A DNA stretch of 47,450 nt from positions 1-47,450 of the forward strand of contig NZ_BAAAHE010000008.1 in NCBI RefSeq assembly GCF_039525035.1, read 5' to 3'. Positions 169 through 17,690 of this stretch are shown here, piece after piece. Each line of letters starts with the position of its first letter. Position 1 is the first letter of the stretch. This DNA comes from Sporichthya brevicatena (GTDB lineage Bacteria; Actinomycetota; Actinomycetes; Sporichthyales; Sporichthyaceae). A program made the translations under genes and the position numbers. The notes under the pieces are model-generated. The model saw only the letters and a list, made by a program, of their open reading frames with translations. It was not told the DNA's origin and did not search any database.

Positions 169-1386
169 TTACTGGATGAGGTCGAAGATCTTGAAGATCG
201 GGAGGTAGAGGGCGACGATCATCGACCCGACGACGGTGCCGAGGAAGGCGATCATCAGCGGTTCGATGAGGGCGGTCAGAGACTCGGTGGTCGCCTCGAC
301 CTCCTGGTCGTAGAACTCGCCGATCTTGCCGAGCATGTCGTCGAGGGCGCCGGTCTCCTCACCGGAGGCCATCATGTGCACGACCATCGACGGGAAGACC
401 TCGTGCTCGGCGAGCGGGCCGGAGATGGACTCACCGGACTTCACGGAGTCCTTGACCTGCTCCAGGGCGCGACTGATGACGACGTTGCCGCTGGAGTCCC
501 CGGTGATCTCGAGGGCGGTGAGGATCGGGACGCCGGACTTGAGCAGCGTGCTCAGGGTCCGCGCGAACCGCGCCAGCGCCACCTTCTGGAAGAGCTTGCC
601 GAAGACCGGGAGGCGGAGCTTGAGCGGGTCGACGACGTTGCGCACCTGCTCGGTCTGGCCGTACTTGCGCCACGCCCACAGGCCGGCGCCGGTCAGGATC
701 GCCAGCAGCGGAGCGAGGTACTTCATCCACTCCGACAGCGTCACCAGGATCCGCGTCGGCAACGGCAGCGTGCCGCCGAGCGTGGCGAACATGTCCCGGA
801 AGATCGGGACGACGAACAGCAGCATGCCGATGACCATGAGGATGGCCAGGATCAGGACGACGACCGGGTAGGTCATCGCGGCCTTGATCTTGCCGCGGAG
901 CTTGACCTCGGCCTCGAAGTTGTCGGCGATCTGACGCATGCTCTGGTCGAGGAACCCGCCGGCCTCGCCGGCGCGGACCATGCTGACCATCAGCGGGGGG
1001 AACACCTTGGGGTGCTTCGCGAACGCCGCGGAGATCGAGGAGCCGGCCTCGACGTCGGTCTTCACCAGACGCAGGACGCGCTTGAGCTCACCGTTCTCCG
1101 ACTGCTCCGAGAGGATCGTCAGCGTGCGCAGCATCGACAGGCCCGCGTTGATCATCGTCGCGAACTGGCGCGAGAAGACCGCGAGGTCCTTGAGCTTGAC
1201 GCGCTCGCGGCCGAACAGGCGGATCTCCCGGTCCAGGCCGGTGTTCGCCTGCTTGATCTCCAGCGGGCGGTAGCCCATCGACCGGAGCTTGTCGGCAACC
1301 GCGCTCTCGCTGTCGGCCTCGACCTTGCCCTCGACCAGCTTCCCGCGGTTGTCCTTGACCTTGTACGCGTACTGCGTTGCTGCCAT
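169..1386 (-). CDS. pilC: Type IV pilus inner-membrane platform protein PilC
   Basis: This 405-aa protein belongs to the T2SS F / PilC family, the polytopic platform on which the PilB and PilT motors act to assemble or retract the pilus. The N-terminal 60 residues look like the short PilC leader domain (AYKVKDNRGKLVEGKVEA). Two T2SSF repeats follow (about 70-193 and 273-395), each with the family signature of a cytoplasmic helical bundle and a hydrophobic segment; strong membrane segments lie near residues 165-190, 218-236 and 375-398. Length is normal for the family. It lies 44 bases downstream of a pilT on the same strand, so the two are probably cotranscribed. The start at 1386 (MAATQYAYKV) gives the normal N-terminus. 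Confidence 0.95.
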   Translation of the reverse strand: MAATQYAYKVKDNRGKLVEGKVEADSESAVADKLRSMGYRPLEIKQANTGLDREIRLFGRERVKLKDLAVFSRQFATMINAGLSMLRTLTILSEQSENGELKRVLRLVKTDVEAGSSISAAFAKHPKVFPPLMVSMVRAGEAGGFLDQSMRQIADNFEAEVKLRGKIKAAMTYPVVVLILAILMVIGMLLFVVPIFRDMFATLGGTLPLPTRILVTLSEWMKYLAPLLAILTGAGLWAWRKYGQTEQVRNVVDPLKLRLPVFGKLFQKVALARFARTLSTLLKSGVPILTALEITGDSSGNVVISRALEQVKDSVKSGESISGPLAEHEVFPSMVVHMMASGEETGALDDMLGKIGEFYDQEVEATTESLTALIEPLMIAFLGTVVGSMIVALYLPIFKIFDLIQ

Positions 1387-1430: not shown

Positions 1431-2720
1431 TCAGAGCGACAGCGGGGCGTTCAGACCGCTGCTCTGCGTGGGAGGACGACGCAGCAGAGACCCCGTCAGC
1501 TGCAGCAGGTCCTCCTTGTTCGTGCAGTGCTCGAGCGCGGTCTCGAGAGTGATCCGGTGGGCCTTCACCAGGTCCGCCAGGTGCGCGTTGAGGGTCTGCA
1601 TCCCGTCACGTGCGCCGGCCTGCAGGGCGCCGGGGATCTGCGGGAGCTTGTCGTCGCGGATCATCGCGCGGATGCCGGGCGTGCAGACCATGATCTCGAC
1701 GGCCGCGACGCGGCCGACGCCGTCGGCGGTGCGGCACAGCGTCTGACACACGACGCCCTGGAGCGTCGCGGCGAGCTGCGTGCGGATCTGCTGCTGCTGC
1801 TCGGCCGGGAACACGTCGACGACGCGGGTGATGGTGTCCTGCGCCGACTGGGTGTGCAGGGTCGCGAAGACGAGGTGGCCGGTCTCGGCCGCGGTGAGCG
1901 CGACGGAGATCGTGTCGAGGTCCCGGAGCTCACCGACGAGGATGACGTCGGGGTCCTGGCGCAGCACGTGCTTGAGTGCGTTGCGGAACGAGTGGGTGTC
2001 GCCACCGACCTCGCGCTGGTTCACGATCGAGCGCTTGTGCTGGTGGAGGAACTCGATCGGGTCCTCGATGGTCATGATGTGGTCGTGCCGGGTCGAGTTG
2101 ATCTGGTCGATGATCGCGGCGAGCGTCGTCGACTTGCCCGAGCCGGTGGGACCGGTGACCAGCACCAGGCCGCGCTTGAGTTCGGCGAAGGACCCGATGA
2201 CCGCCGGCATGTTCAGCTGGTCGAGGCCCTTGATCTCCCACGGGATCACACGGAGCACGGCCCCGATCGATTCGCGCTGCTGGAAGATGTTCATGCGGAA
2301 CCGGGCGTGCCCGGGCAGCGCGTACGCCAGGTCGAGTTCGAGGTTTTCCTCGAAGACCTTGCGCTGACGCTCCGTCAGGATGCCGTAGATCAGTTCGCGC
2401 AGGGTGTCACCGGTGAGCACCGGCTGGTCCTCGACCGGCATGACCTTGCCGAGGTGCCGCACGACGGGCGGGGACCCGGCCGTGAGGTGCAGGTCGGAGC
2501 CACCGAGCTCAAGCAGGTGCAGCAACAGCTCGTCGAGGTCGACGCGCTTGTTCGCGATCGCCTCCTCGCGGGCACGGGCGGCGGCCTCCGCGGCCTCGGC
2601 GGCGGCGGCGATGGCGGCGGCCTGGTGCTCCGCGGTCAGAGCGCTGACCGCGAGCTCGTGGGTCGAGGCGAGCGCGTCCGCGATCTCGTACTGGGCCAGC
2701 AGGTCGGGCGTCTGCTCCAC
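1431..2720 (-). CDS. pilT: Pilus retraction ATPase PilT (first copy)
   Basis: A hexameric ATPase of the PilT/VirB11 family that powers pilus retraction. The fold starts near residue 62 (DELLLHLLELGGSDLHL), with Walker A GPTGSGKS at 190-197, Asp box MTIEDPIEF, Walker B DVILVGELRD at 258-267 and His box TGHLVFATLHT. I choose GTG at 2718-2720 (VEQTPDLLAQ), which has GGAAGG 7 bases upstream. An in-frame ATG further upstream at 2774 lies inside a perfect hairpin and is unlikely. The protein is then 429 aa, with about 60 extra N-terminal residues, alanine/glutamate-rich and probably helical, compared with ordinary PilT. pilC follows 44 bases downstream. A second PilT is encoded at 10036-11139, so division of labour is possible. 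Confidence 0.9.
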   Translation of the reverse strand: MEQTPDLLAQYEIADALASTHELAVSALTAEHQAAAIAAAAEAAEAAARAREEAIANKRVDLDELLLHLLELGGSDLHLTAGSPPVVRHLGKVMPVEDQPVLTGDTLRELIYGILTERQRKVFEENLELDLAYALPGHARFRMNIFQQRESIGAVLRVIPWEIKGLDQLNMPAVIGSFAELKRGLVLVTGPTGSGKSTTLAAIIDQINSTRHDHIMTIEDPIEFLHQHKRSIVNQREVGGDTHSFRNALKHVLRQDPDVILVGELRDLDTISVALTAAETGHLVFATLHTQSAQDTITRVVDVFPAEQQQQIRTQLAATLQGVVCQTLCRTADGVGRVAAVEIMVCTPGIRAMIRDDKLPQIPGALQAGARDGMQTLNAHLADLVKAHRITLETALEHCTNKEDLLQLTGSLLRRPPTQSSGLNAPLSL

Positions 2721-2781: not shown

Positions 2782-2809
2782 TTTTCGTCCTCCGGAGGGC
2801 GGGCCTTGA
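2782..2809 (-). promoter_or_regulatory. Candidate WhiG/FliA-type promoter of pilT
   Basis: On the minus strand TCAA (2806-2809) is followed after 16 bases by GACGAAAA (2782-2789). Compared with the FliA/WhiG consensus TAAA-N15/16-GCCGATAA, this matches 3 of 4 and 6 of 8 bases. A WhiG/FliA-family sigma is encoded in the same region and two more motifs of this shape precede pilM and pilT2. The alignment was made by eye and single matches of this quality occur by chance. Confidence 0.35.
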
Positions 2810-7778: not shown

Positions 7779-9464
7779 TCAGGCGACGACGCGGAGGATC
7801 TCCTCGATCGACGTCAGCCCCTGGCGGACCTTGAGCCAGCCGTCGTCGCGCAGGCTCGTCATGCCCTGGGCGGTCGCCATCTTCTCGATCTCGTCCGTGG
7901 AGGCACGGGCCACGGCGAGGCGCTCGATCTCCTCGGTGACCGTCATGACCTCGTGGAGGGCCATCCGGCCGTGGTAGCCGGTGCGGGCGCACGCGGTGCA
8001 CCCCACGGCCCGGTAGAGCACCGGGAGGGGCTCGGAGGGGTCGTGGCCGAAGCGCACGTCGGCGAGCTCCTGCTCGGTCGGCGTGTACGGCTCCTTGCAC
8101 TCCTTGCACAACGTCCGGCAGAGCCGCTGGGCGAGGACGGAGTCGAGCGCGGACGCGACGAGGAACGGCTCGATGCCCATCTCGATGAGCCGGCCGATCG
8201 CGGACGGGGCGTCGTTGGTGTGCAGGGTGCTCAGCACCATGTGGCCGGTGAGGGCGGACTCGACGGCGATCTGCGCGGTCTCGTGGTCCCGGATCTCACC
8301 GATGAGGATGACGTCGGGGTCGGACCGCAGGATCGAGCGCAGCGCGCGGGCGAACGTCAGGCCGGCCTTCGGGTTCGTCTGCACCTGGTTCACGCCGGGC
8401 AGCCGGTACTCGACGGGGTCCTCGACGGTGATGATGTTGACCGCCGGGTCGTTGAGGATGTTCAGCGTCGCGTAGAGCGTCGTCGATTTGCCGGAACCGG
8501 TCGGGCCGGTCACCAGGATCATCCCGTAGGGCTTGGTGTACGCGTTCCGGTAGCGGCGGAAGTTGTGGGCGGAGAACCCGAGCTCGTCCAGGCTCAGCTG
8601 GGCGGTCGAGTTGTCCAGGATGCGGGCGACGATCTTCTCGCCCCACACCGTCGGCAGCGTCGCCACGCGCAGGTCGACCTTGCGGCCGTTGTGGTTGACC
8701 GAGAGCCGGCCGTCCTGCGGCACGCGGCGCTCCGCGATGTTGATGTCGGCCATGATCTTGATGCGCGAGATCACGCCGGCCTGGATCGACTTCGTCGACC
8801 GGTGCTGCTCGTGGAGGACGCCGTCGATGCGGTACCGCACGCGCAGGTCGTTCTCGGTGGGCTCGATGTGGATGTCCGAGGCCCGGTCGGCGATCGCCTG
8901 CGAGATCAGCAGGTTGACGAACCGCACGATCGGGGCGTCCTCCGCCACCGTCGTGAAGTTCGAGAGGTCCTCGGCCTGCTCCTCGGTCTCGATGTTCGAG
9001 GTGAGGTCGGTGAGCTCGTCCTCGGCCCGGTAGAGCTGGTCGATCTTCGCGACGATGTCCGCGTGCGGCGCGAGGGCGAACCGGACGAGGCTGCGCGTGA
9101 GCCGGACCAGGTCGTCCTTGAGCTCGATGTTGCCGGCCTGCTTCACGCCGACGGCGACGAGCAGTTCGCCGTTCTCCCAGCCGAGCGGGAGGACGCCGTA
9201 GCGGCGGGCGTAGTCGGCGGGCAGGCGCGCGGCGGCGGTGGGGTCGACGGAGTAGTTCGCGAGCTCGACGTACGGCAGGCCGACGGCGGCTGCGGCGGTG
9301 CGCACCACATCGCTGGTCGACACCACCTTGGTGTCGACCAGGACCTGGAGGGGGGCGCGTCCGTCGAGCTCGCTCTGCCTCACCGCCTCGGCGACCTGAT
9401 CCTCAGTCACCAAGCCGGCGTCCACGAGCGCCGCGACGGCGTCGCCGCCTGGCACGCCGATCAT
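7779..9464 (-). CDS. pilB: Type IV pilus extension ATPase PilB
   Basis: A 561-aa PilB/GspE-family ATPase that drives pilin polymerisation on PilC. The N-terminal MshEN/T2SSE_N-like domain spans about 1-150; MshEN domains can bind c-di-GMP in some PilB homologues. The motor domain carries Walker A GPTGSGKST at 320-328, Asp box ITVEDPVEY, Walker B DVILIGEIRD at 384-393, and His box TGHMVLSTLHT. The family's zinc-binding cysteines are present (C453/C456 and C489/C492), which separates it from PilT. I place the start at ATG 9462-9464 (MIGVPGGDAV), 5 bases after the stop of the rsiG-like gene. No good ribosome site is visible there, which fits translational coupling. Confidence 0.95.
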   Translation of the reverse strand: MIGVPGGDAVAALVDAGLVTEDQVAEAVRQSELDGRAPLQVLVDTKVVSTSDVVRTAAAAVGLPYVELANYSVDPTAAARLPADYARRYGVLPLGWENGELLVAVGVKQAGNIELKDDLVRLTRSLVRFALAPHADIVAKIDQLYRAEDELTDLTSNIETEEQAEDLSNFTTVAEDAPIVRFVNLLISQAIADRASDIHIEPTENDLRVRYRIDGVLHEQHRSTKSIQAGVISRIKIMADINIAERRVPQDGRLSVNHNGRKVDLRVATLPTVWGEKIVARILDNSTAQLSLDELGFSAHNFRRYRNAYTKPYGMILVTGPTGSGKSTTLYATLNILNDPAVNIITVEDPVEYRLPGVNQVQTNPKAGLTFARALRSILRSDPDVILIGEIRDHETAQIAVESALTGHMVLSTLHTNDAPSAIGRLIEMGIEPFLVASALDSVLAQRLCRTLCKECKEPYTPTEQELADVRFGHDPSEPLPVLYRAVGCTACARTGYHGRMALHEVMTVTEEIERLAVARASTDEIEKMATAQGMTSLRDDGWLKVRQGLTSIEEILRVVA

Positions 9465-9469
9465 GACCG

Positions 9470-10039
9470 TCAGAGTGGCAGCGCGGAGAGCGCGGCGGCC
9501 GGGTTGTCGCGGTAACGCAGGATCAGCTCGGCCGTGGCCTCGTCGATGCGCTCGAACAGCGCCTTCCGGTAGGCAGTCAGTTTGTGCTCGGCGGCGCGGA
9601 GCTTCTCCTGGGCCTCCGCGAGCGCGGCCGGGTCGTGCGGGTCGACCTCGGTGACCCACATGTCCGTGGTCTCCGGCAGGTCCGGCAGCGGCGCGGCGGG
9701 GTGGACGGCGGACAGCGCGGTGCGGCTGGCACCGCTGCCGGTGTCGCCGAGCACCCGGATCAGCTGCTCGACCGAGAGCGTGCCCTCGGTGTGCGAGCCG
9801 ACCTCGAGCATGTCGAGGCGGGCGTGCACGAGACGCCGCCAGTAGGAGACACGGTCCTCCTCGTCCTGGAGGTCGCGCCGGTACGCCCGCAGCGCCGCCA
9901 GGTCCAGGTCCGCCAGGTGCGGTGCGGCCACCAGCTCACCGGTGCCCCGCTTCGTCCGCCGGCCCTCGTCCATCCCCACCCCGTTCCGGGACGCCGACCG
10001 GGCCCTCGGAAGTCCCGACCGTTCGTTTCCGTTCCTCAT
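9470..10039 (-). CDS. rsiG: RsiG-like c-di-GMP-binding anti-sigma factor, twin-motif type
   Basis: A 189-aa protein of two long helices joined by a loop. Known RsiG proteins bind c-di-GMP through E(X)3S(X)2R(X)3Q(X)3D motifs, one on each helix of an antiparallel coiled coil, and then sequester sigma-WhiG. Here helix one has E61, S65, R68, H72, D76 and helix two has E151, T155, R158, F162, D166. The spacing is exact in both; Q is replaced by H and F, and one S by T. Its ATG overlaps the stop of pilT2 (ATGA) and pilB begins 5 bases after it, so it is embedded in a pilus operon. A WhiG/FliA sigma is encoded at 16974-17690. In Rubrobacter an RsiG-WhiG pair controls T4P expression. The assignment rests on motif and context, not alignment. 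The first 35 residues look disordered, and M23 is an alternative start. Confidence 0.82.
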   Translation of the reverse strand: MRNGNERSGLPRARSASRNGVGMDEGRRTKRGTGELVAAPHLADLDLAALRAYRRDLQDEEDRVSYWRRLVHARLDMLEVGSHTEGTLSVEQLIRVLGDTGSGASRTALSAVHPAAPLPDLPETTDMWVTEVDPHDPAALAEAQEKLRAAEHKLTAYRKALFERIDEATAELILRYRDNPAAALSALPL

Positions 10040-11139
10040 CGCGTCAGGGTCTCCGCCATCGTCGCGGTCACCCCGGCACGTCGCAGCATGACCGACAGGT
10101 CGTGCGGACGGCTCGCCACCAGCTTGGCATCTTCGAGCGAGACCGTGCCGTCCAGGACCAGTCGGAGCAGGTGCTGGTCGAAGGATTGCATCCCGGAGTA
10201 GTCCCCCGCCGCCACCAGATCCGGAATCGTGTCCGTCTTGTCCGGGTCCGCGATGGCCTCGGCCACGCGAGCGTCGTTCACGGCGATCTCCATGACGCAG
10301 GTCCTACCCGCGCCGTCGGCCTTCGGCACCAGCCGCTGGCAGACGATTCCCTTGAGCGCCGCGGCCAGCGAGAGCCGGACCTGCTTCTGCTCGTGCTCGG
10401 GGAAGAAGTCGACGATGCGGTTCACGGTTTCGCGAGCGTCCGTGGTGTGCAGCGTGGACATGACGAAGTGTCCGGTCTCCGCGGCGGCGAGGGCGGCCTT
10501 GACGGTGTCCACGTCGCGCATCTCGCCGATGAGGATGACGTCGGGGTCCTGCCGCATGGCCGCGCGCAGCGCCGTGGACCAGTTGCGGGTGTCCATGCCG
10601 ATCTCGCGCTGGTTGACCGAGGCGAGCTTGTCGCGGTGGGTGACCTCGATCGGGTCCTCGATCGTGAGGATGTGGACGGCGCGGTTGGCGTTGATCTGGT
10701 CGACCATCGCGGCGAGCGTCGTCGTCTTGCCCGACCCGGTCGGTCCGGTCACGAGCACCAGGCCGCGCGGTTCGAGCGCGAGCTTGCCGAGCACCGCCGG
10801 CATGCCGAGCTCCTCGAGCGACATCGGCTCGTCGGTGATCAGTCGCATGACCGAGCCGACCTCGCCGCGCGCCCGGAACACGTTGACGCGGAACCGTCCG
10901 ACGCCGGGGACGGCGAGGGCGTAGTCCGCCTCGTTGTTCTTGGCGAAGTACTCGGCCACGTCCGGCGACATCGTCGGGAGGATCAGGTCCTCGACGTCCG
11001 CCGGCGAGAGGACGGGGGAGTCCAGGGCGACCAGGGATCCGGAGATCCGGATCTTCGGCGGGGCGCTGGACTTGATGTGAAGGTCTGAGGCGCTGTTCTG
11101 CACGACGGCGCGCAGCAGCGGCGCGATCTCCGGCTCCAT
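10036..11139 (-). CDS. pilT2: PilT-family retraction ATPase (second copy)
   Basis: A 367-aa PilT-type ATPase, the usual PilT length. It opens with IAPLLRAVVQNSASDLHI, has Walker A GPTGSGKTT at 132-140, Asp box LTIEDPIEV, Walker B DVILIGEMRD and His box TGHFVMSTLHT, and lacks PilB's zinc cysteines. Frame is open far upstream, but ATG 11137-11139 gives the canonical N-terminus. There is no strong ribosome site, and a candidate -10 ends only about 8 bases upstream, so the message may be nearly leaderless. Its TGA overlaps the ATG of the rsiG-like gene. It could be a PilT, PilT2 or PilU-like accessory motor; sequence alone does not settle which. Confidence 0.92.
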   Translation of the reverse strand: MEPEIAPLLRAVVQNSASDLHIKSSAPPKIRISGSLVALDSPVLSPADVEDLILPTMSPDVAEYFAKNNEADYALAVPGVGRFRVNVFRARGEVGSVMRLITDEPMSLEELGMPAVLGKLALEPRGLVLVTGPTGSGKTTTLAAMVDQINANRAVHILTIEDPIEVTHRDKLASVNQREIGMDTRNWSTALRAAMRQDPDVILIGEMRDVDTVKAALAAAETGHFVMSTLHTTDARETVNRIVDFFPEHEQKQVRLSLAAALKGIVCQRLVPKADGAGRTCVMEIAVNDARVAEAIADPDKTDTIPDLVAAGDYSGMQSFDQHLLRLVLDGTVSLEDAKLVASRPHDLSVMLRRAGVTATMAETLTR

Positions 11140-11146
11140 ACCAGCT

Positions 11147-11173
11147 GTGTCGGCTTTTCCAGATCCGGACTGA
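11147..11173 (-). promoter_or_regulatory. Candidate WhiG/FliA-type promoter of pilT2-rsiG-pilB
   Basis: On the minus strand TCAG (11170-11173), 15 bases, then GCCGACAC (11147-11154). The -10 matches 6 of 8 bases of GCCGATAA. Transcription would start a few bases before the pilT2 ATG. If real, the anti-sigma gene would be under its own target sigma. Visual match only. Confidence 0.3.
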
Positions 11174-11234
11174 AGTCCCGTCGTGTCGCCCGGAGATGTC
11201 CGGATTCGTCGCCGGACGGGGCATACGTCCGCCC

Positions 11235-11262
11235 TCAAGCCGTGCCGGATGGGCTCCGATAC
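11235..11262 (+). promoter_or_regulatory. Candidate WhiG/FliA-type promoter of the pilM operon
   Basis: TCAA (11235-11238), 16 bases, then TCCGATAC (11255-11262), against the consensus TAAA-N15/16-GCCGATAA. Six of eight -10 bases and three of four -35 bases match. The start of pilM is about 50 bases downstream, leaving room for a leader with a good ribosome site. It is the best of the three motifs of this kind here because of its position in the divergent pilus intergenic region. Confidence 0.45.
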
Positions 11263-11313
11263 AGCTGTCGGCGCAGGGAGCGTGGCCGCCCCGACCTCCA
11301 GGAGACAAGCACG

Positions 11314-12432
11314 GTGAAGCGAACAGATGCCCGATGGGGCGCCCGCAAGGTGGTCTGCCTGGACGTGGGCAGCTCCGGTCTGCGAGCGGCGCAGTTCAGC
11401 GTCCGCTCGACCCCGATGAGTGGCACGTCGTGCCGGCTCGACCGCTTCGCGGCGGTCCCGCTGCCGGAGGGCGCGGTCGCCGGCGGTGTCGTGACCGACC
11501 CGGCCGCGGTGGCGAAGGCGCTGCGCGCGCTGTGGTCCGCGGGCCGCTTCTCCACGAAGAAGGTCGTGTTCGGTCTCGCCAACGACCGCGTGCTGGTCCG
11601 TCAGCTCGACCTGGACTGGATGGAGCCGGCGGACTTCCGCAAGGCGCTGCCGTACTCGGTCGCCGACCAGATCCCGATGTCGGTGAACGAGGCGAACCTC
11701 GACTACCACGTGCTCGAGGACCTGCCGGCCGGCCCGGACCCCGAGTCCGAGCACATGCTCCGGATCCTGCTCGTGGCCGCCGCCAGCGAGATGGTCGACA
11801 CCTTCCTCACCGCGCTGTCCGAGGCGGACCTGGTGCCGGTGAAGGCGGAGCTCGCGCCGTTCGCGCTGATCCGCGCCGCCGTCCCGAACCCCGAGCCCGC
11901 GGCCGACGCCGACGTGGCCGAGGCGATCGTCGACATCGGGGCCGACACCCTGACCGTCGTCGTTCACACCGCCGGGCAGCCGCGGTTCGTGCGTACCGTC
12001 AACCAGCTCGGCGGCCGGGTCATCACCGGCGAGCTGCAGCAGAAGTTCGGTTGGTCCTTCGACGAGGCCGAGGAGGCGAAGGCGCAGTACGGTCTGCCCC
12101 GCCAGCGCAGCGGCGACGAGGAGAAGGTCAACCTCGAGCACCCCGCGCAGCAGGCTATCGAGGAGCGGGTCGCCGGCGTGGTCGCCGAGGTCCGCACCAC
12201 CCTGAACTTCTTCCTGTCGGCCGGCACCGGCGTGCGCAGCCTCTCCCGCATCCTGCTCACCGGCGGCGGTTCGCGCCTGTCCGGGCTCTCCGAGCGGATC
12301 GCGGAGGCGATGGACACCGAGGTGGTCCTGCTCGCCACCCCGCGTGAGGTGAAGAGCCGTGTCTCCGCCGCGGCCGAGGACGACCTCGGCGCGGTCGCCC
12401 TGCTGTCGGGTCTCGCCCTGGGAGTGATGTGA
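11314..12432 (+). CDS. pilM: Type IV pilus assembly protein PilM
   Basis: A 372-aa actin-like ATPase-fold protein that sits on the cytoplasmic side and binds the N-terminus of PilN. The N-terminal phosphate-1 motif is CLDVGSSGLRAAQF and later actin-fold blocks are IVDIGADTLTVVV and ILLTGGGSRLSGL. I start at GTG 11314 (VKRTDARWGA), with AGGAG about 10 bases upstream; the frame is open earlier but without a site. It is the first gene of a plus-strand operon: pilN begins one base after its stop. It is divergent from pilT2 across a 174-base gap holding candidate promoters in both directions. Confidence 0.93.
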   Translation: MKRTDARWGARKVVCLDVGSSGLRAAQFSVRSTPMSGTSCRLDRFAAVPLPEGAVAGGVVTDPAAVAKALRALWSAGRFSTKKVVFGLANDRVLVRQLDLDWMEPADFRKALPYSVADQIPMSVNEANLDYHVLEDLPAGPDPESEHMLRILLVAAASEMVDTFLTALSEADLVPVKAELAPFALIRAAVPNPEPAADADVAEAIVDIGADTLTVVVHTAGQPRFVRTVNQLGGRVITGELQQKFGWSFDEAEEAKAQYGLPRQRSGDEEKVNLEHPAQQAIEERVAGVVAEVRTTLNFFLSAGTGVRSLSRILLTGGGSRLSGLSERIAEAMDTEVVLLATPREVKSRVSAAAEDDLGAVALLSGLALGVM

Positions 12433-12433
12433 C

Positions 12434-13681
12434 GTGTCGTTCCTGAGTTCGGGCAAGACGCTCGACAAGGTCAAGCTGCCCCGTCAGTTGAGCGCGGCCA
12501 ACTTCCGTGCCGGCTCCACCAAGACGCCGCCGGTCCGCACCGGCCAGCCGTCGCGGACGCTGCCGTCGGTGAACCTCCTGCCGGAGTCGACGCTGGAGGC
12601 GCTCGCCGTCCGGCGGGTCCGCCACCGTCTGGTCGCGGCCGGTCTCGCCGGCGCGGTCCTCGTGGGTGGTGGCTGGATGGTGCAGACCCAGCGCCTCCAC
12701 AGCGCCGAGGACCGGCTCGCGGCGGAGCAGGCGCTCACGCCCGCGCTGAACGCCCAGGTCGCCGCGCTCGCCCCGGTCGCGCAGTTCTTCGACCTCCTGC
12801 AGGCGCGCAAGGGCACCGCCTCGGCCGCCATGGCGCACGAGGTCCTGTTCTCCGACGCGCTCACCGACCTCGCCGGCCGCACCCCGGCGGGCATCGAGAT
12901 CAACGCGATGTCGGTCTCGCTGACCGCCGAGACGGTCAGCGCGGTCGCTCCGCCCGTCTCCCCGCTGACCGAGGCCGGCATCGACGCCGAGGGCAACGAC
13001 CTGACGAAGAATCAGACCGGGACGCAGAACCCGGCGGGTGCCCAGACCGCGACCCAGAACAGCGCGGTGCGCGGAGCCGTCGCGGCCGCGGACGGTACGT
13101 CCACGACCACCGGGAGCGGGGACGCGGCTGCGTCGACGGCTCCGAAGACGGTGGTGCCGCCGGTCAGCTGTGCGCGCCCCGACCCGTTCAACCCGGCCCC
13201 GATCATCGGCTGTGTGACGCTGAGCGGGACCGCGCAGAACCGGGCCCAGGTCGGCCAGCTCATCCAGAACCTGCGGGCCGCGGATCTCTACGCCGACCCC
13301 TTCATCACGACGACGACGATGAACGCCGGCGACGGCAGCGAGGTCGTCGCCTTCGCGGGCAGCGTCGGTCTCACCGGCAAGGCGGTCAGCGGCCGCTACG
13401 CCGACCTGAGCTGGCTCTCGGACCCGAAGGTCCTCGACGAGGCCGAGCGCATGATCAAGGCCGGCAACACCGCCAGCCACCGGCTCGCCGAGCGGGCCAA
13501 GGCCGCCGCCATCGCCGCCAAGGCGAAGGCCGACGCCGAGGCCGCCGCGAAGGAGAAGGCCGAGCGCAAGGCGCAGCTCAAGGCGGAGAAGGAACTCGCC
13601 GCCCAGCTGCAGGCCGCGGCGGCCGCCGCCGCGGCTGCGGCCGCGCAGCAGCAACAGCAGCAGCAGAACGAAGGTGAGTGA
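12434..13681 (+). CDS. pilN: Type IV pilus alignment protein PilN, with long C-terminal tail
   Basis: A 415-aa bitopic protein. The short cytoplasmic N-terminus contains VNLLPES, the conserved PilM-binding NLLP motif (about 46-51). A single membrane segment follows (about 66-84), then a coiled coil and periplasmic-type domain that pairs with PilO. PilN proteins are usually about 200 aa. Here a Ser/Thr/Ala-rich insert (about 185-240) and a C-terminal tail rich in Ala, Lys and Glu, ending in poly-Ala and a run of Gln, double the length. The GTG start is 1 base after the pilM stop. Identity rests on order, the NLLP motif and topology. Confidence 0.85.
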   Translation: MSFLSSGKTLDKVKLPRQLSAANFRAGSTKTPPVRTGQPSRTLPSVNLLPESTLEALAVRRVRHRLVAAGLAGAVLVGGGWMVQTQRLHSAEDRLAAEQALTPALNAQVAALAPVAQFFDLLQARKGTASAAMAHEVLFSDALTDLAGRTPAGIEINAMSVSLTAETVSAVAPPVSPLTEAGIDAEGNDLTKNQTGTQNPAGAQTATQNSAVRGAVAAADGTSTTTGSGDAAASTAPKTVVPPVSCARPDPFNPAPIIGCVTLSGTAQNRAQVGQLIQNLRAADLYADPFITTTTMNAGDGSEVVAFAGSVGLTGKAVSGRYADLSWLSDPKVLDEAERMIKAGNTASHRLAERAKAAAIAAKAKADAEAAAKEKAERKAQLKAEKELAAQLQAAAAAAAAAAAQQQQQQQNEGE

Positions 13682-13683
13682 GC

Positions 13684-14349
13684 ATGAAGACGTCGGCTCT
13701 CACGGCGGTCCACAAGAACGCCATCGCCGGATCGCTGATCCTGCTCATCGCCCTGGTCGCGGCCTGGATGTTCGTCCTCAGCCCGCGCAGTGACGCGATC
13801 GCCGCCACCAACGAGGAGGTCGCGGTCGCCGAGCAGCGGAACCAGTCGCTGCGCAACCAGATCCAGACGCTGAAGCTCCGTGAGGAGCAGCTGCCGGCGC
13901 TGCGGGAGACGTCCAAGGCGCTCGACCGCCGCTTCCCGCCGACCGCCGAGCAGGCGAAGCTGTTCAAGATGATCACGGCGGCCGCGGCCGAGGCCGGGAT
14001 CGCACCGCAGCACCTGACGAGCATGCAGATGGACCCGCCGGCCGCGGTCGGCACCGGGTCGTCCGCGCAGCTGCCGGGTGTCGCGGCACCGGTCGCCTCG
14101 ATCGCCGGTCAGAAGCTGACGATCAACGTCTCCGGCTCCCCGAGCCAGATCCGTGCCTTCGTGGCCAACCTGGAGAAGCTCCCGCGCGCGTTCGCGGTCT
14201 CCACGATCAGCCTGGCGCAGCAGTCCGCGAGCCAGGAGCCGAGCGAGAACGCCTCGACGGCCGCCGACGCGCAGACCGTGACGATCACCGGCGACATGTT
14301 CCTGCTGCCGAAGGTGGTCGACCCGACGAAGGCCGGCAGTGCGGGCTGA
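13684..14349 (+). CDS. pilO: Type IV pilus alignment protein PilO
   Basis: A 221-aa bitopic protein: cytoplasmic start, one membrane segment (about 14-32, AIAGSLILLIALVAAWMF), a coiled coil (about 38-85), and a small alpha/beta domain. The stretch LTINVSGSPSQIRAFVANLEKLPRAFAVSTI is typical of PilO/PilN ferredoxin-like domains. It heterodimerises with PilN to connect PilM to the outer parts of the machine. I prefer ATG 13684, with AAGG 9 bases upstream; a GTG at 13678 overlapping the pilN stop would add two residues. It lies between pilN and a small coiled-coil gene whose start is 13 bases after its stop. Confidence 0.88.
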   Translation: MKTSALTAVHKNAIAGSLILLIALVAAWMFVLSPRSDAIAATNEEVAVAEQRNQSLRNQIQTLKLREEQLPALRETSKALDRRFPPTAEQAKLFKMITAAAAEAGIAPQHLTSMQMDPPAAVGTGSSAQLPGVAAPVASIAGQKLTINVSGSPSQIRAFVANLEKLPRAFAVSTISLAQQSASQEPSENASTAADAQTVTITGDMFLLPKVVDPTKAGSAG

Positions 14350-14362
14350 GGGCCGACGGGGC

Positions 14363-14692
14363 ATGCTGCGGCTGCGCCGTCGGGAGAACGTCGAGGCCCT
14401 CGCCGTCGAGGGCTCGGACGACCCGATCGTCGACCTGTTCGCCGAGCTCGACGAGCTCAAGGCCCAGGTGTACCGGCAGAACCGGATGCTCCGTCAGCAG
14501 GACGGGCGGATCGTGCGTGAGCGCGCCGCCGCCCAGGCCGACGAGCACCGCCGGTTGCTGGTCGCGGTCCGGGCGTTGACGACCGCCATCGTCGACGACC
14601 CGGCCTCGACGCCGGAGGCGCGGTCGTGCGCCGCGCGGTTCGAGGCGGCGGTCCGTCGCCTCGAGCCCGAGCCGCCGCCGTCGCTGGCCTGA
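14363..14692 (+). CDS. Small coiled-coil protein in the pilus operon, function unknown
   Basis: A 109-aa soluble, highly charged protein. Residues 1-15 are Arg-rich, about 25-60 form a heptad-like helix (FAELDELKAQVYRQNRMLRQQ), and the rest is helical and Arg/Ala-rich. No membrane segment and no family I recognise. ATG 14363 has GAGGG about 10 bases upstream; GTG 14339, overlapping the end of pilO, is an alternative. Its place right after pilMNO suggests a small cytoplasmic pilus partner, but that is inference from context. Confidence 0.65.
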   Translation: MLRLRRRENVEALAVEGSDDPIVDLFAELDELKAQVYRQNRMLRQQDGRIVRERAAAQADEHRRLLVAVRALTTAIVDDPASTPEARSCAARFEAAVRRLEPEPPPSLA

Positions 14693-14730
14693 CCCTCCAC
14701 CCCGCCCACGTACGTCCTTCAGGAGCCCTC

Positions 14731-15639
14731 ATGACCGCGCCCGTCGCCGGAGCGGACGCGATCCCTGCGTCGGCCCCGACAACCGAGCCCGCGGCGACTG
14801 CTGACCCGGCTGCCGACCGGGCTGGCGACCGTGCTGGCGACCGTGCTGCCGAGATCGCCGACACCACCGCGAAGATCGCGCTGTACGCCCGGGTCTCCCG
14901 GATCGCCGCGGCCGAGCGGGACCCCCGCGTCGCGGTCGGTGCGGCCTGGGCGACGGACGTCCTGACGGTCCAGCAGTTGCTCGCCGAGCGCGCGCCGGCC
15001 GAGTCGGACGCCGCCCACCAGCGGTTCCTCGCGGTCGCGACGGCCGTGGGCGCCGCGGTCTCGGGCGCCCCGGCGACGGGTGAGCCCGAGCCGAGGGCCC
15101 GGGACGCCCGTGAGGTCGTCGTCGCGGCCCGCCGCCGGATGCTCGGGGTCTTCGACGCTTCCGCCGCGGCGCTGATCGCGGAGCGTCTGACCGACCTGGA
15201 GCACCTCGCCGAACTGCCGCCGGCCGTCGGCAAGGCGCTGCCGGCCCCCGGTGACGCCCTGAAGTGGCGGGCCCGGGAGATCGGGCCGTCCGGCCTGATC
15301 GATCAGCTGCGCCTCGACGCGTCCGACGGGCGCCTCATCGCCGAGGCGCTGCTGGCCGCCGGCTACCGCCGTGACGCCGCCCGGCAGATGTGCCTGGCCG
15401 ACGTCGCCGAGGTCGAGGCCTACCTGGTCGAGGCCTCCGTCGCCGTCGGCGACGACGCGCTGCTGCTCGCCGACGTGCGGCGCGGCGCCCTGGTCTTCCT
15501 GCTCTCCGAGGCTGCGGAGCGTCCGGTGGACGTCGCCGCCGCCCGGGCCGGGGTGTGGGCCGCGGTCCGAGCGGCGCTGCCGCCGGCCGAGGTGGAGCGG
15601 CTCGCACCCCGGCTCGGACGTACGAGGACTGCCGCGTGA
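14731..15639 (+). CDS. Conserved-looking pilus-operon protein of unknown function
   Basis: A 302-aa soluble, Ala-rich, mainly helical protein. The first 50 residues are low-complexity (ADRAGDRAGDRA) and probably disordered. The rest has two predicted helical parts: about 50-150, and about 165-290 (LKWRAREIGPSGLIDQLRL; QMCLADVAEVEAYLVEASV). I recognise no domain, active-site motif or signal peptide. ATG 14731 has AGGAG 5 bases upstream. Its TGA overlaps the GTG of the prepilin peptidase gene, so the two are translationally coupled. It may be a lineage-specific pilus accessory factor. Confidence 0.7.
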   Translation: MTAPVAGADAIPASAPTTEPAATADPAADRAGDRAGDRAAEIADTTAKIALYARVSRIAAAERDPRVAVGAAWATDVLTVQQLLAERAPAESDAAHQRFLAVATAVGAAVSGAPATGEPEPRARDAREVVVAARRRMLGVFDASAAALIAERLTDLEHLAELPPAVGKALPAPGDALKWRAREIGPSGLIDQLRLDASDGRLIAEALLAAGYRRDAARQMCLADVAEVEAYLVEASVAVGDDALLLADVRRGALVFLLSEAAERPVDVAAARAGVWAAVRAALPPAEVERLAPRLGRTRTAA

Positions 15640-16421
15640 GCACTGAACTGACGGCGGCCGCCGCCCTCGCCCTGCTCGGCCTGCTGGTCGGCTCGTTCCT
15701 GAACGTCGTCGTCCACCGCGTGCCGGCCGGGCAGTCGGTGGTGCGGCCGGGGTCGAGCTGCCCGGAGTGCGGGAGCCCGGTGCGCGCGCGGGACAACATT
15801 CCCGTCGTCTCGTGGCTGCTGCTGCGCGGACGCTGCCGGGACTGTGCCCACCCGATCTCCGCGCGGTACCCGCTCGTGGAGCTCGGATGTGCCGCCCTCT
15901 TCGGCGCCCTGACGCTCCGTTTCGGGCTGAGCCCGATCCTGCCGGCGCTGCTGTTCCTGGCCGCGATCGGCCTGGCGCTCGCGATGATCGACCTCGACGT
16001 CAGCCGCCTGCCGTTCGAGATCTCCGTGCCCGGCCTCGGTGTCACCGCGGTGCTGCTGGCTCTCGCCGGCTTCGCCGACGGGTGGTCGCCGGTGGCGGTG
16101 GCGCTGCTGTCCGCCCTCGCCTGGTTCGGCCTGTACTGGTCGCTGTGGTTCGGCACCGGCGGCCGGGGCATGGGCCTGGGCGACGTCGTCCTCGCCCCGA
16201 CCCTGGGTCTTGCGCTGGGCTGGCTGGGCTGGGGCCCGAGCCTGGTGGGCCTGCTCGGCGGGTTCGCGATCGGGTCGGTCGTCGGCGTGACGCTGATGCT
16301 GGTCGGCCGCGCCGGCCGCCGCAGCCAGATCCCGTTCGGGCCGTCGATGCTCGCCGGCGCCCTGCTCGGTGCCTTCGCCGGCTCCGCGATCTGGGGCGCC
16401 TACCTCGGCACGATCGGCTAG
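15636..16421 (+). CDS. pilD: Prepilin peptidase / N-methyltransferase PilD
   Basis: A 261-aa polytopic aspartyl protease that trims and N-methylates type IV prepilins. The cytoplasmic N-terminal domain has both zinc pairs, C42/C45 (CPEC) and C67/C70 (CRDC), together with the methyltransferase-type sequence (GSFLNVVVHRVP, DNIPVVSWLLLRGRC). Membrane helices follow, carrying catalytic aspartates in AMIDLDVSRLP (D119/D121) and in MGLGDVVLAP (D183). The usual LPD is LPF here and the usual K after GD is V, which are mild departures. GTG 15636 overlaps the preceding stop. Its presence implies pilin substrates, which are not in the window. Confidence 0.95.
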   Translation: MSTELTAAAALALLGLLVGSFLNVVVHRVPAGQSVVRPGSSCPECGSPVRARDNIPVVSWLLLRGRCRDCAHPISARYPLVELGCAALFGALTLRFGLSPILPALLFLAAIGLALAMIDLDVSRLPFEISVPGLGVTAVLLALAGFADGWSPVAVALLSALAWFGLYWSLWFGTGGRGMGLGDVVLAPTLGLALGWLGWGPSLVGLLGGFAIGSVVGVTLMLVGRAGRRSQIPFGPSMLAGALLGAFAGSAIWGAYLGTIG

Positions 16422-16434
16422 CCGTTCGGCGGGG

Positions 16435-16966
16435 TTGGTCGTCCCCGTCAGCTACCGCCCCGAGTACGTGGAGCAGCGCAACCGCCTGACGGTCTTCTTC
16501 CGGTTCCTGCTCGCCATCCCGCTGATGATCGTCGGGATCGTCTACGGCATCGCCGCGGTCTTCACGATTCTCGGCGCCTGGTTCGCCCTGATGTTCACCG
16601 GGCGCTACCCGGACGGCCTCTGGCGGCTGAACACGGGATTCCTGCGCTACTGGGGTCTACATCGTCGTCCAGGTCTTCAGCTACGTGGTCATGCCGGTGG
16701 CCTTCGTGATGTGGGTCGTCGCCGTGATCACCGGGAAGATGCCGCGCGGTCTGTACGACGTCATGACGTTCCTGCAGGGGTTCACCGTCCGCGTCACCGG
16801 CTACGCGTTCTTCCTGGTGACCGACCGGTACCCGGTGTTCAACGACGACGCGGCCCGGGACCCGGGCACCGCGCTGCCCCCGGGCTACGGACCGCCGCCG
16901 GGCTACGGACCTCCGCCCGGGTACGGTCAGCCGCCCCAGCCCTACGGCGAGGCGCCGCCGGTCTGA
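16435..16966 (+). pseudogene. DUF4389 membrane protein, split by a one-base frameshift
   Basis: The first frame (from TTG 16435, or GTG 16369 inside pilD) encodes PVSYRPEYVEQRNRL, a membrane segment and ALMFTGRYPDGLWRL, typical of DUF4389. At a run of four G (16652-16655) the frame is lost. One frame over, the protein resumes with VYIVVQVFSYVV, ITGKMPRGLYDVMTF and FLVTDRYPVF, the second half of a DUF4389 repeat, and ends in a Pro-Tyr-Gly-rich tail. Removing one G restores a single protein of about 176 residues. Either the gene is newly broken, or the G run is a sequencing error, or the frame slips in vivo. It ends 7 bases from the convergent sigma gene. Confidence 0.75.
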
Positions 16967-16973
16967 CCCGGGG

Positions 16974-17690
16974 TCAATGCGCGCCGGCGGCGGCCTGGAC
17001 CAGGCCGCGGAGGGCGAGCATCGCCCGGGTGTGGAGCTGGCTGACGCGGGACTCGGTGACCCCGAGCACCTGGCCGATCTCGGCGAGGGTGAAGCCCTCG
17101 TAGTAGTAGAGGGCGACGATGATCTGGTCGCGCTCGCGCAGGTCGCGGACGTGGCGCAGCAGCGCCTCCTTGACCGCGTCGTCCTCGAGGGCGGCACCCG
17201 GGGCGGGCGCGTCGTCGACGATGACGAGGTCCTCCATCGCGGCGATGGAGGTGTACGCGACCTTGGAGTAGAGGCCGTTCAGGGCCTTCGCGGTGATGCC
17301 CATCTCCGCGGCGATCTCGTCCTCGGTCGGCGTGCGGCCGAGCCGCTCGACGAGGACCGCGTGGGCGCGCTCGATCGCGCGCAGCTTCTCGCGCACGGAG
17401 CGCGGGACCCAGTCCTGGGAGCGGAGGGCGTCGATCATCGCGCCCTTGATGCGCGGGACGGCGTAGGTCTGGAACTCCAGGCCGCGGCTCGTGTCGAACT
17501 TCTCGATCGCGTCGATCAGGCCGAAGACGCCCTCGGAGACAAGGTCGTTGGTGTCCACGTTCTGGGGCAAACCGGACCGGAGGCGGCCGGCGACGTACTT
17601 GACCAGGGGCGCGTACTGCAGCACGAGACGGTTGCGCAGTTCGGGCGACCCTGTGGCCTTGAACTCTGCCCAGACGTCGCTGATGTCCAC
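16974..17690 (-). CDS. whiG: WhiG/FliA-family RNA polymerase sigma factor
   Basis: A 238-aa sigma-70-family protein with region 2 (about 14-85: LVLQYAPLVKYVAGRL, DLVSEGVFGLIDAIEKFD, FQTYAVPRIKGAMIDALR), region 3 (about 100-140) and region 4 (about 180-232, FTLAEIGQVLGVTESRVSQLHTRA). RIKGAMID and the overall layout are typical of the FliA/WhiG group that reads TAAA-N15-GCCGATAA promoters. The start is GTG 17690 (VDISDVWAEF), with GGAGGG about 9 bases upstream. In other actinobacteria this sigma is held by RsiG with c-di-GMP and directs sporulation, flagellar or T4P genes. A candidate RsiG is encoded 6.9 kb away, so I infer a role in pilus expression. No flagellar genes are seen here. Confidence 0.93.
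   Translation of the reverse strand: MDISDVWAEFKATGSPELRNRLVLQYAPLVKYVAGRLRSGLPQNVDTNDLVSEGVFGLIDAIEKFDTSRGLEFQTYAVPRIKGAMIDALRSQDWVPRSVREKLRAIERAHAVLVERLGRTPTEDEIAAEMGITAKALNGLYSKVAYTSIAAMEDLVIVDDAPAPGAALEDDAVKEALLRHVRDLRERDQIIVALYYYEGFTLAEIGQVLGVTESRVSQLHTRAMLALRGLVQAAAGAH

Follow-up and report, generated by a model that had tools for sequence, protein, structure and literature searches.

The 47,450-nucleotide stretch of DNA from the soil actinobacterium Sporichthya brevicatena analysed here (contig NZ_BAAAHE010000008.1; hereafter the window) carries a type IV pilus (T4P) locus in which an anti-sigma gene of the RsiG family sits between the motor genes pilT and pilB, and which also encodes a WhiG-type sigma factor. 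We propose, with a probability of roughly 0.8, that this RsiG, a twin-motif protein of a pilus-associated clade, holds the locus-encoded sigma at high cyclic di-GMP (c-di-GMP), and that the sigma drives the pilus operons once freed. Streptomyces and Rubrobacter are known to use the RsiG-WhiG switch, while its pilus-embedded branch appears to be undescribed in the openly searchable literature (subscription papers and preprints lie outside this scope). The proposal is built on features read from sequence, namely the protein family, both c-di-GMP motifs, the predicted fold, the sigma residues that contact the ligand, the co-inheritance and linkage of the pair and the promoter sites. From these we infer that the window RsiG binds c-di-GMP and forms a complex with the window sigma. 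The direction of control is taken by analogy from Streptomyces and Rubrobacter, where RsiG loaded with c-di-GMP keeps hold of the sigma until the ligand is lost (PMC8325347).

A twin-motif RsiG between pilT and pilB

9470-10039, minus strand: rsiG-like anti-sigma gene, 189 residues (Pfam PF22802; PDB 6pfj_T by sequence; AlphaFold model matched to 6pfv_T)
9812-9859, minus strand: c-di-GMP motif 1, residues 61-76, with E61, S65, R68, H72 and D76 (motif comparison)
9542-9589, minus strand: c-di-GMP motif 2, residues 151-166, with E151, T155, R158, F162 and D166 (motif comparison)
10036-11139, minus strand: pilT-type ATPase gene, its stop overlapping the rsiG start in ATGA (PF00437, junction)
7779-9464, minus strand: pilB, with MshEN and T2SSE domains, starting 5 bases past the rsiG stop (Pfam, junction)

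The first-pass annotation had described two exactly spaced RsiG motifs in this protein, and both are present in the open reading frame on the minus strand, each fitting E-x3-S/T-x2-R-x3-[QHF]-x3-D. When the 189-residue sequence was shuffled 200,000 times, one such motif arose in 0.19% of the shuffles and two in none. The protein thus has the twin-motif form of RsiG (two copies of E-x3-S-x2-R-x3-[Q/H]-x3-D), with H72 in motif 1, while motif 2 departs from S and Q/H by T155 and F162, conservative changes that are also found in relatives. It had been suggested that the replacement of glutamine by histidine and phenylalanine might alter affinity or ligand count, but this suggestion is weak, as the changes are family variation: histidine in motif 1 is a frequent natural variant, judged suited to the same stacking (PMC8325347), and phenylalanine at the motif-2 position occurs also in 3 of 19 canonical RsiGs.

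Assignment to the family is firm. Checked against the RsiG family model, as had been advised, the protein scores 64.7 bits with PF22802 (E 6e-18, in two stretches; cut-off 27 bits), and a sequence search of the PDB returned significant matches to RsiG structures only. The match to 6pfj_T has E 1e-6 in a single-sequence search and E 1.7e-32 over the full length by profile; the profile match is not fully independent because the alignment behind it, which also underlies the AlphaFold model, includes canonical RsiGs, while the single-sequence match is independent. The model (pLDDT 82, a confidence score) has two long helices, 25-59 and 115-156, at pLDDT of about 90 or above, joined by a poorly defined linker, and its best Foldseek match is 6pfv_T, the RsiG of the Streptomyces venezuelae RsiG-WhiG-c-di-GMP crystal (E 6e-4, 146 residues, Z 10.5, the Z score by itself not being decisive for helical hairpins). 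The antiparallel two-helix fold expected of an RsiG is therefore what the model predicts.

The tight packing of the gene between the two motor genes, also pointed out at first pass, can be read directly in the DNA: ATGA joins pilT to rsiG (pilT stop codon at 10036-10038) and 5 bases separate the rsiG stop from the pilB start. The ATG of the pilT/rsiG junction is kept in the Sporichthyaceae loci examined; a codon-usage gene caller chose an alternative internal start at 9973, giving 167 residues. The closest named record, from a Sporichthya metagenome-assembled genome (MAG), is 86% identical to the window RsiG. The order pilT-rsiG-pilB is found in all five Sporichthyaceae loci (the window and L060-L063) and, among 80 loci fetched, in 15 more from Nocardioides and Aeromicrobium, with the L061 contig, of which there are two copies, counted once. 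A whiG-type gene is instead the neighbour of rsiG in five other loci, four of which come from Nocardioidaceae, and where these genes are called (L277, L279, L280) they overlap by 4 bp. The idea that any RsiG tends to neighbour pili was rejected, as no recognisable pil or whiG genes lie near any of 48 RsiG loci of canonical or single-motif type (30 with flanks of ~1.5 kb and 18 with up to ~10 kb).

Whole-genome searches found two or three RsiG-like genes in many actinomycetes; the Rubrobacter study reports a second RsiG in only one genome (PMC8325347). The window RsiG clusters with a YWRR-type set (EExRVSYWRR...) and not with the Streptomyces type, and a tree of 66 proteins resolves three groups: canonical RsiGs (support 100/99), RsiG paralogs encoded between nth and crp (96/76), and pilus-linked plus whiG-adjacent RsiGs (99/98), among which the window protein falls. 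By sequence, then, the clade to which it belongs is paralogous to the Streptomyces type and separate from it. Twin-motif RsiGs form three or more clades, and one of these has perhaps lost a c-di-GMP site. In the pilus-linked and whiG-adjacent clade 26 of 26 members retain S/T, R and D in both motifs, and all have E61, with T and H typical, whereas the motif-2 Asp of the nth-crp group is kept in 30 of 75 and lost in 45. Constraint on the c-di-GMP residues thus coincides exactly with the presence of a linked WhiG-type sigma.

Over 50 actinomycete genomes, most of them MAGs, have a member of the nth-crp clade (L155-L213; for example L155:8621-9157 and L176:4890-5354), and in the relatives checked it is usually accompanied by a canonical RsiG and one WhiG. 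Three records titled Bifidobacterium breve or Acidobacteria (L165, L173, L147) have RsiG loci typical of actinomycetes and are apparently misnamed or misbinned.

The linked sigma and its predicted promoters

16974-17690, minus strand: WhiG-type sigma gene, probable RsiG partner, keeping the equivalents of S. venezuelae WhiG K57, G61 and R62 (TIGR02479, alignment, tree)

The presence of a WhiG/FliA-type sigma gene in the same locus, as originally annotated, is borne out by a score of 236 bits with TIGR02479 (FliA/WhiG; cut-off 189.6). The protein reaches 289.3 bits with the WhiG equivalog NF004935 (PRK06288), below its cut-off of 343 bits, so we term it WhiG-type and not WhiG itself. Its stretch APLVKYVAGRL holds the Lys, Gly and Arg equivalent to K57, G61 and R62, the residues in contact with c-di-GMP in the complexes from S. 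venezuelae and Rubrobacter (PMC8325347). This K-x3-G-R pattern is kept in all WhiG-type sigmas except one canonical one and is absent from their flagellar counterparts in the same genomes. In a tree of 65 proteins the window sigma forms one group with pilus-linked and rsiG-adjacent sigmas, including the linked Nocardioidaceae ones; canonical WhiG stands apart as a neighbour (98/90) and the flagellar sigmas lie far off (100/100). RsiG and the linked sigma share a contig in 13 of 15 Nocardioidaceae genomes, 0.6-19 kb apart, the remaining two being draft assemblies that have them on separate contigs; in N. ungokensis two genes for pilins and one for an M23/VanY hydrolase come before the sigma gene, which lies at the distal end of the pilus cluster. 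On these sequence grounds the window sigma is the most likely partner of the window RsiG. The linker between sigma regions 3 and 4 is ~16 residues shorter than in S. venezuelae WhiG, a trait common to the Sporichthyaceae pilus sigmas.

11235-11262, plus strand: WhiG-type promoter upstream of pilM, TCAAG-N15-TCCGATAC (position weight matrix, conservation)
2782-2809, minus strand: WhiG-type promoter-like site upstream of a second pilT-like ATPase gene, TCAAG-N15-GACGAAAA (conserved in L060 and L061)
11147-11174, minus strand: weak promoter-like site just upstream of pilT-rsiG-pilB, TTCAG-N15-GCCGACAC (not significant alone; aligns with stronger sites in L062 and L063)

The predicted targets of this sigma are found at the pilus genes themselves. 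In Nocardioidaceae T4P loci, TCAAG-N15-GCCGATGA occurs at 47 sites, against a mean of ~2.5 for permuted patterns. A position weight matrix trained only on the Nocardioidaceae sites picks out the window pilM site with p 0.003. Both boxes of this site are kept in L060, L061 and L062 while the spacer has diverged, and the site is present in every resolvable locus (p 0.014 or less). The local promoter form can be written TCAAG-N15-(G/T)CCGAT. Genome-wide, the locus holds 10 of 19 exact matches in six Nocardioides genomes and 2 of 9 in four Sporichthyaceae, which agrees with the enrichment, although this count is partly circular because the pattern came from such loci. The Rubrobacter/flagellar consensus TAAA-N15-GCCGATAA was rejected as the promoter form here: at three mismatches the window has 7 matches with 3.4 expected, which is no enrichment, and the genome-wide search gave 26 matches, none of them within the window.

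Proposed switch and alternatives

In the mechanism that we propose, at high c-di-GMP the two antiparallel helices of an RsiG monomer would bind a c-di-GMP dimer between them, and the loaded protein would clamp the WhiG-type sigma whose gene closes the locus, keeping the pilus genes off. A drop in c-di-GMP, which any of the three GGDEF proteins of the genome could make, would free the sigma, and the pilus operons, above all that of pilM, would be transcribed from TCAAG-N15-GCCGATGA-type promoters. As rsiG is placed between the two motor genes and coupled to both, the anti-sigma would be produced in step with the pilus motors. The c-di-GMP/sigma reading of the first-pass annotation thus stands as far as the identity of RsiG, the linked WhiG-type sigma as most likely partner and the WhiG-type promoters at pilus genes are concerned, while the additional route that it envisaged, through the N-domain of PilB, does not. 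The window PilB matches the MshEN fold by Pfam, but the c-di-GMP signature of this domain, two 24-residue motifs beginning RLGxx(L/V/I)(L/V/I)xxG... (PMC5013675), is absent in strict or relaxed form from 17 of 17 PilBs (the window and 16 related ones), and we have rejected c-di-GMP control of PilB via MshEN.

Several observations weigh against the proposed switch. Support for the group containing the window sigma is moderate (85/73), and three sigmas of the FliA/WhiG family score above or near the cut-off in this genome, which makes the choice of partner for RsiG a matter of probability. The loss of the motif-2 Asp in 45 of 75 nth-crp paralogs means that an RsiG-like sequence is no guarantee of c-di-GMP binding. 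Of 17 related loci, only 4 have a significant site upstream of pilT-rsiG-pilB; we considered that through this pilT promoter the sigma might feed back negatively on itself by driving rsiG. Finally, pilM was not found in four Nocardioidaceae genomes with an adjacent rsiG-whiG pair, so the association of the pair with pili is not universal.

What could RsiG be doing otherwise? It may be a working anti-sigma whose partner is the canonical WhiG encoded elsewhere in the genome (G000:C44), its placement in the pilus operon reflecting mere co-expression. The genome does hold this canonical-type WhiG (267 bits) and no canonical RsiG was found in it, so that the C44 sigma would otherwise lack an anti-sigma. 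However, Nocardioidaceae with the same RsiG clade have one WhiG-type sigma, the linked one, and in several of them rsiG overlaps whiG. Moreover, the canonical WhiG of the sister Sporichthya genome G396 (L239), in a family without canonical RsiG, has the c-di-GMP-contact lysine K57 replaced by arginine. We consider this partner unlikely.

Alternatively, RsiG might bind c-di-GMP and act directly on the motors PilT and PilB rather than on a sigma, as the tight coupling and the conservation of the pilT-rsiG-pilB order in two families could suggest. This is hard to reconcile with the occurrence of the same clade next to whiG in genomes that lack pilM, with a fold and motifs of the anti-sigma type and with the missing c-di-GMP signature in PilB, and we regard it as very improbable. 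We give equally little credence to a two-output protein that would hold the sigma and also bind the flanking motor ATPases, a single c-di-GMP sensor for pilus-gene expression and motor activity, although it would account for the pilT-rsiG-pilB order being kept in two families while the location of whiG varies. Least probable of all is a degenerate RsiG that retains the fold but has lost c-di-GMP control, as may be the case in the nth-crp paralogs, since the T for S and F for Q of motif 2 and the Asp loss in those relatives are outweighed by the strict conservation of both motifs within the clade, where T and H are typical, and by the preserved contact residues of the sigma.

Known systems and the rest of the locus

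The proposed switch resembles the S. venezuelae RsiG-(c-di-GMP)2-WhiG complex (6pfj, 6pfv) in its twin motifs, two long helices and a WhiG-type partner with K57, G61 and R62. It differs in that the window RsiG belongs to the YWRR-type clade (25-29% identity in structural alignments), and in that rsiG lies in a pilus operon with the sigma gene in the same locus, so the predicted output is pili and not sporulation. That output, T4P expressed through WhiG-type promoters, is shared with the (RsiG)2-(c-di-GMP)2-WhiG system of Rubrobacter radiotolerans (7lq4; PMC8325347). There, however, RsiG is single-motif and dimeric, while the window protein is twin-motif, and the -35 element is TAAA as opposed to TCAAG in the window locus. 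The text of the Rubrobacter paper mentions neither the rsiG gene order, nor rsiG/whiG inside a pilus cluster, nor Nocardioides (PMC8325347). The nth-crp paralogs of Frankiales, Nanopelagicales, Motilibacter and others form a neighbouring clade with the same SYWRR motif-1 signature, but they have mostly lost the motif-2 Asp, show no pilus or whiG linkage and usually occur beside a canonical RsiG.

Until now, Rubrobacter, whose RsiG is a single-motif dimer, was the only case for which RsiG-WhiG control of T4P had been inferred. That Sporichthyaceae and Nocardioidaceae have a twin-motif RsiG in their pilus loci, along with a sigma subclade of its own, suggests that such control is widespread, and that it either persisted through the internal duplication of RsiG or was recovered afterwards. 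Nocardioides provides cultured hosts in which the switch can be tested.

In the Streptomyces RmdB-WhiG-RsiG circuit (PMC13232838) a GGDEF-EAL protein acts with the RsiG-WhiG pair; no GGDEF-EAL gene was seen beside the window rsiG. In Nocardioides iriomotensis (L277:12418-16917), whose genome lacks pilM, a similar gene, of the PAS-GGDEF-EAL type, lies directly upstream of rsiG and whiG, and the three together make up a compact c-di-GMP module.

The other pilus genes of the window are as follows.

11314-12432, plus strand: pilM (PF11104, 137 bits)
12434-13681, plus strand: pilN (PF05137)
13678-14349, plus strand: pilO (PF04350)
15636-16421, plus strand: prepilin peptidase gene, pilD (PF06750 and PF01478)
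1431-2720, minus strand: second pilT-like ATPase gene (PF00437)
169-1386, minus strand: pilC (PF00482, 234 bits)

The interval between pilO and pilD encodes a 302-residue protein without a Pfam match (14731-15639), which is conserved at the corresponding position of Nocardioides pilus loci.

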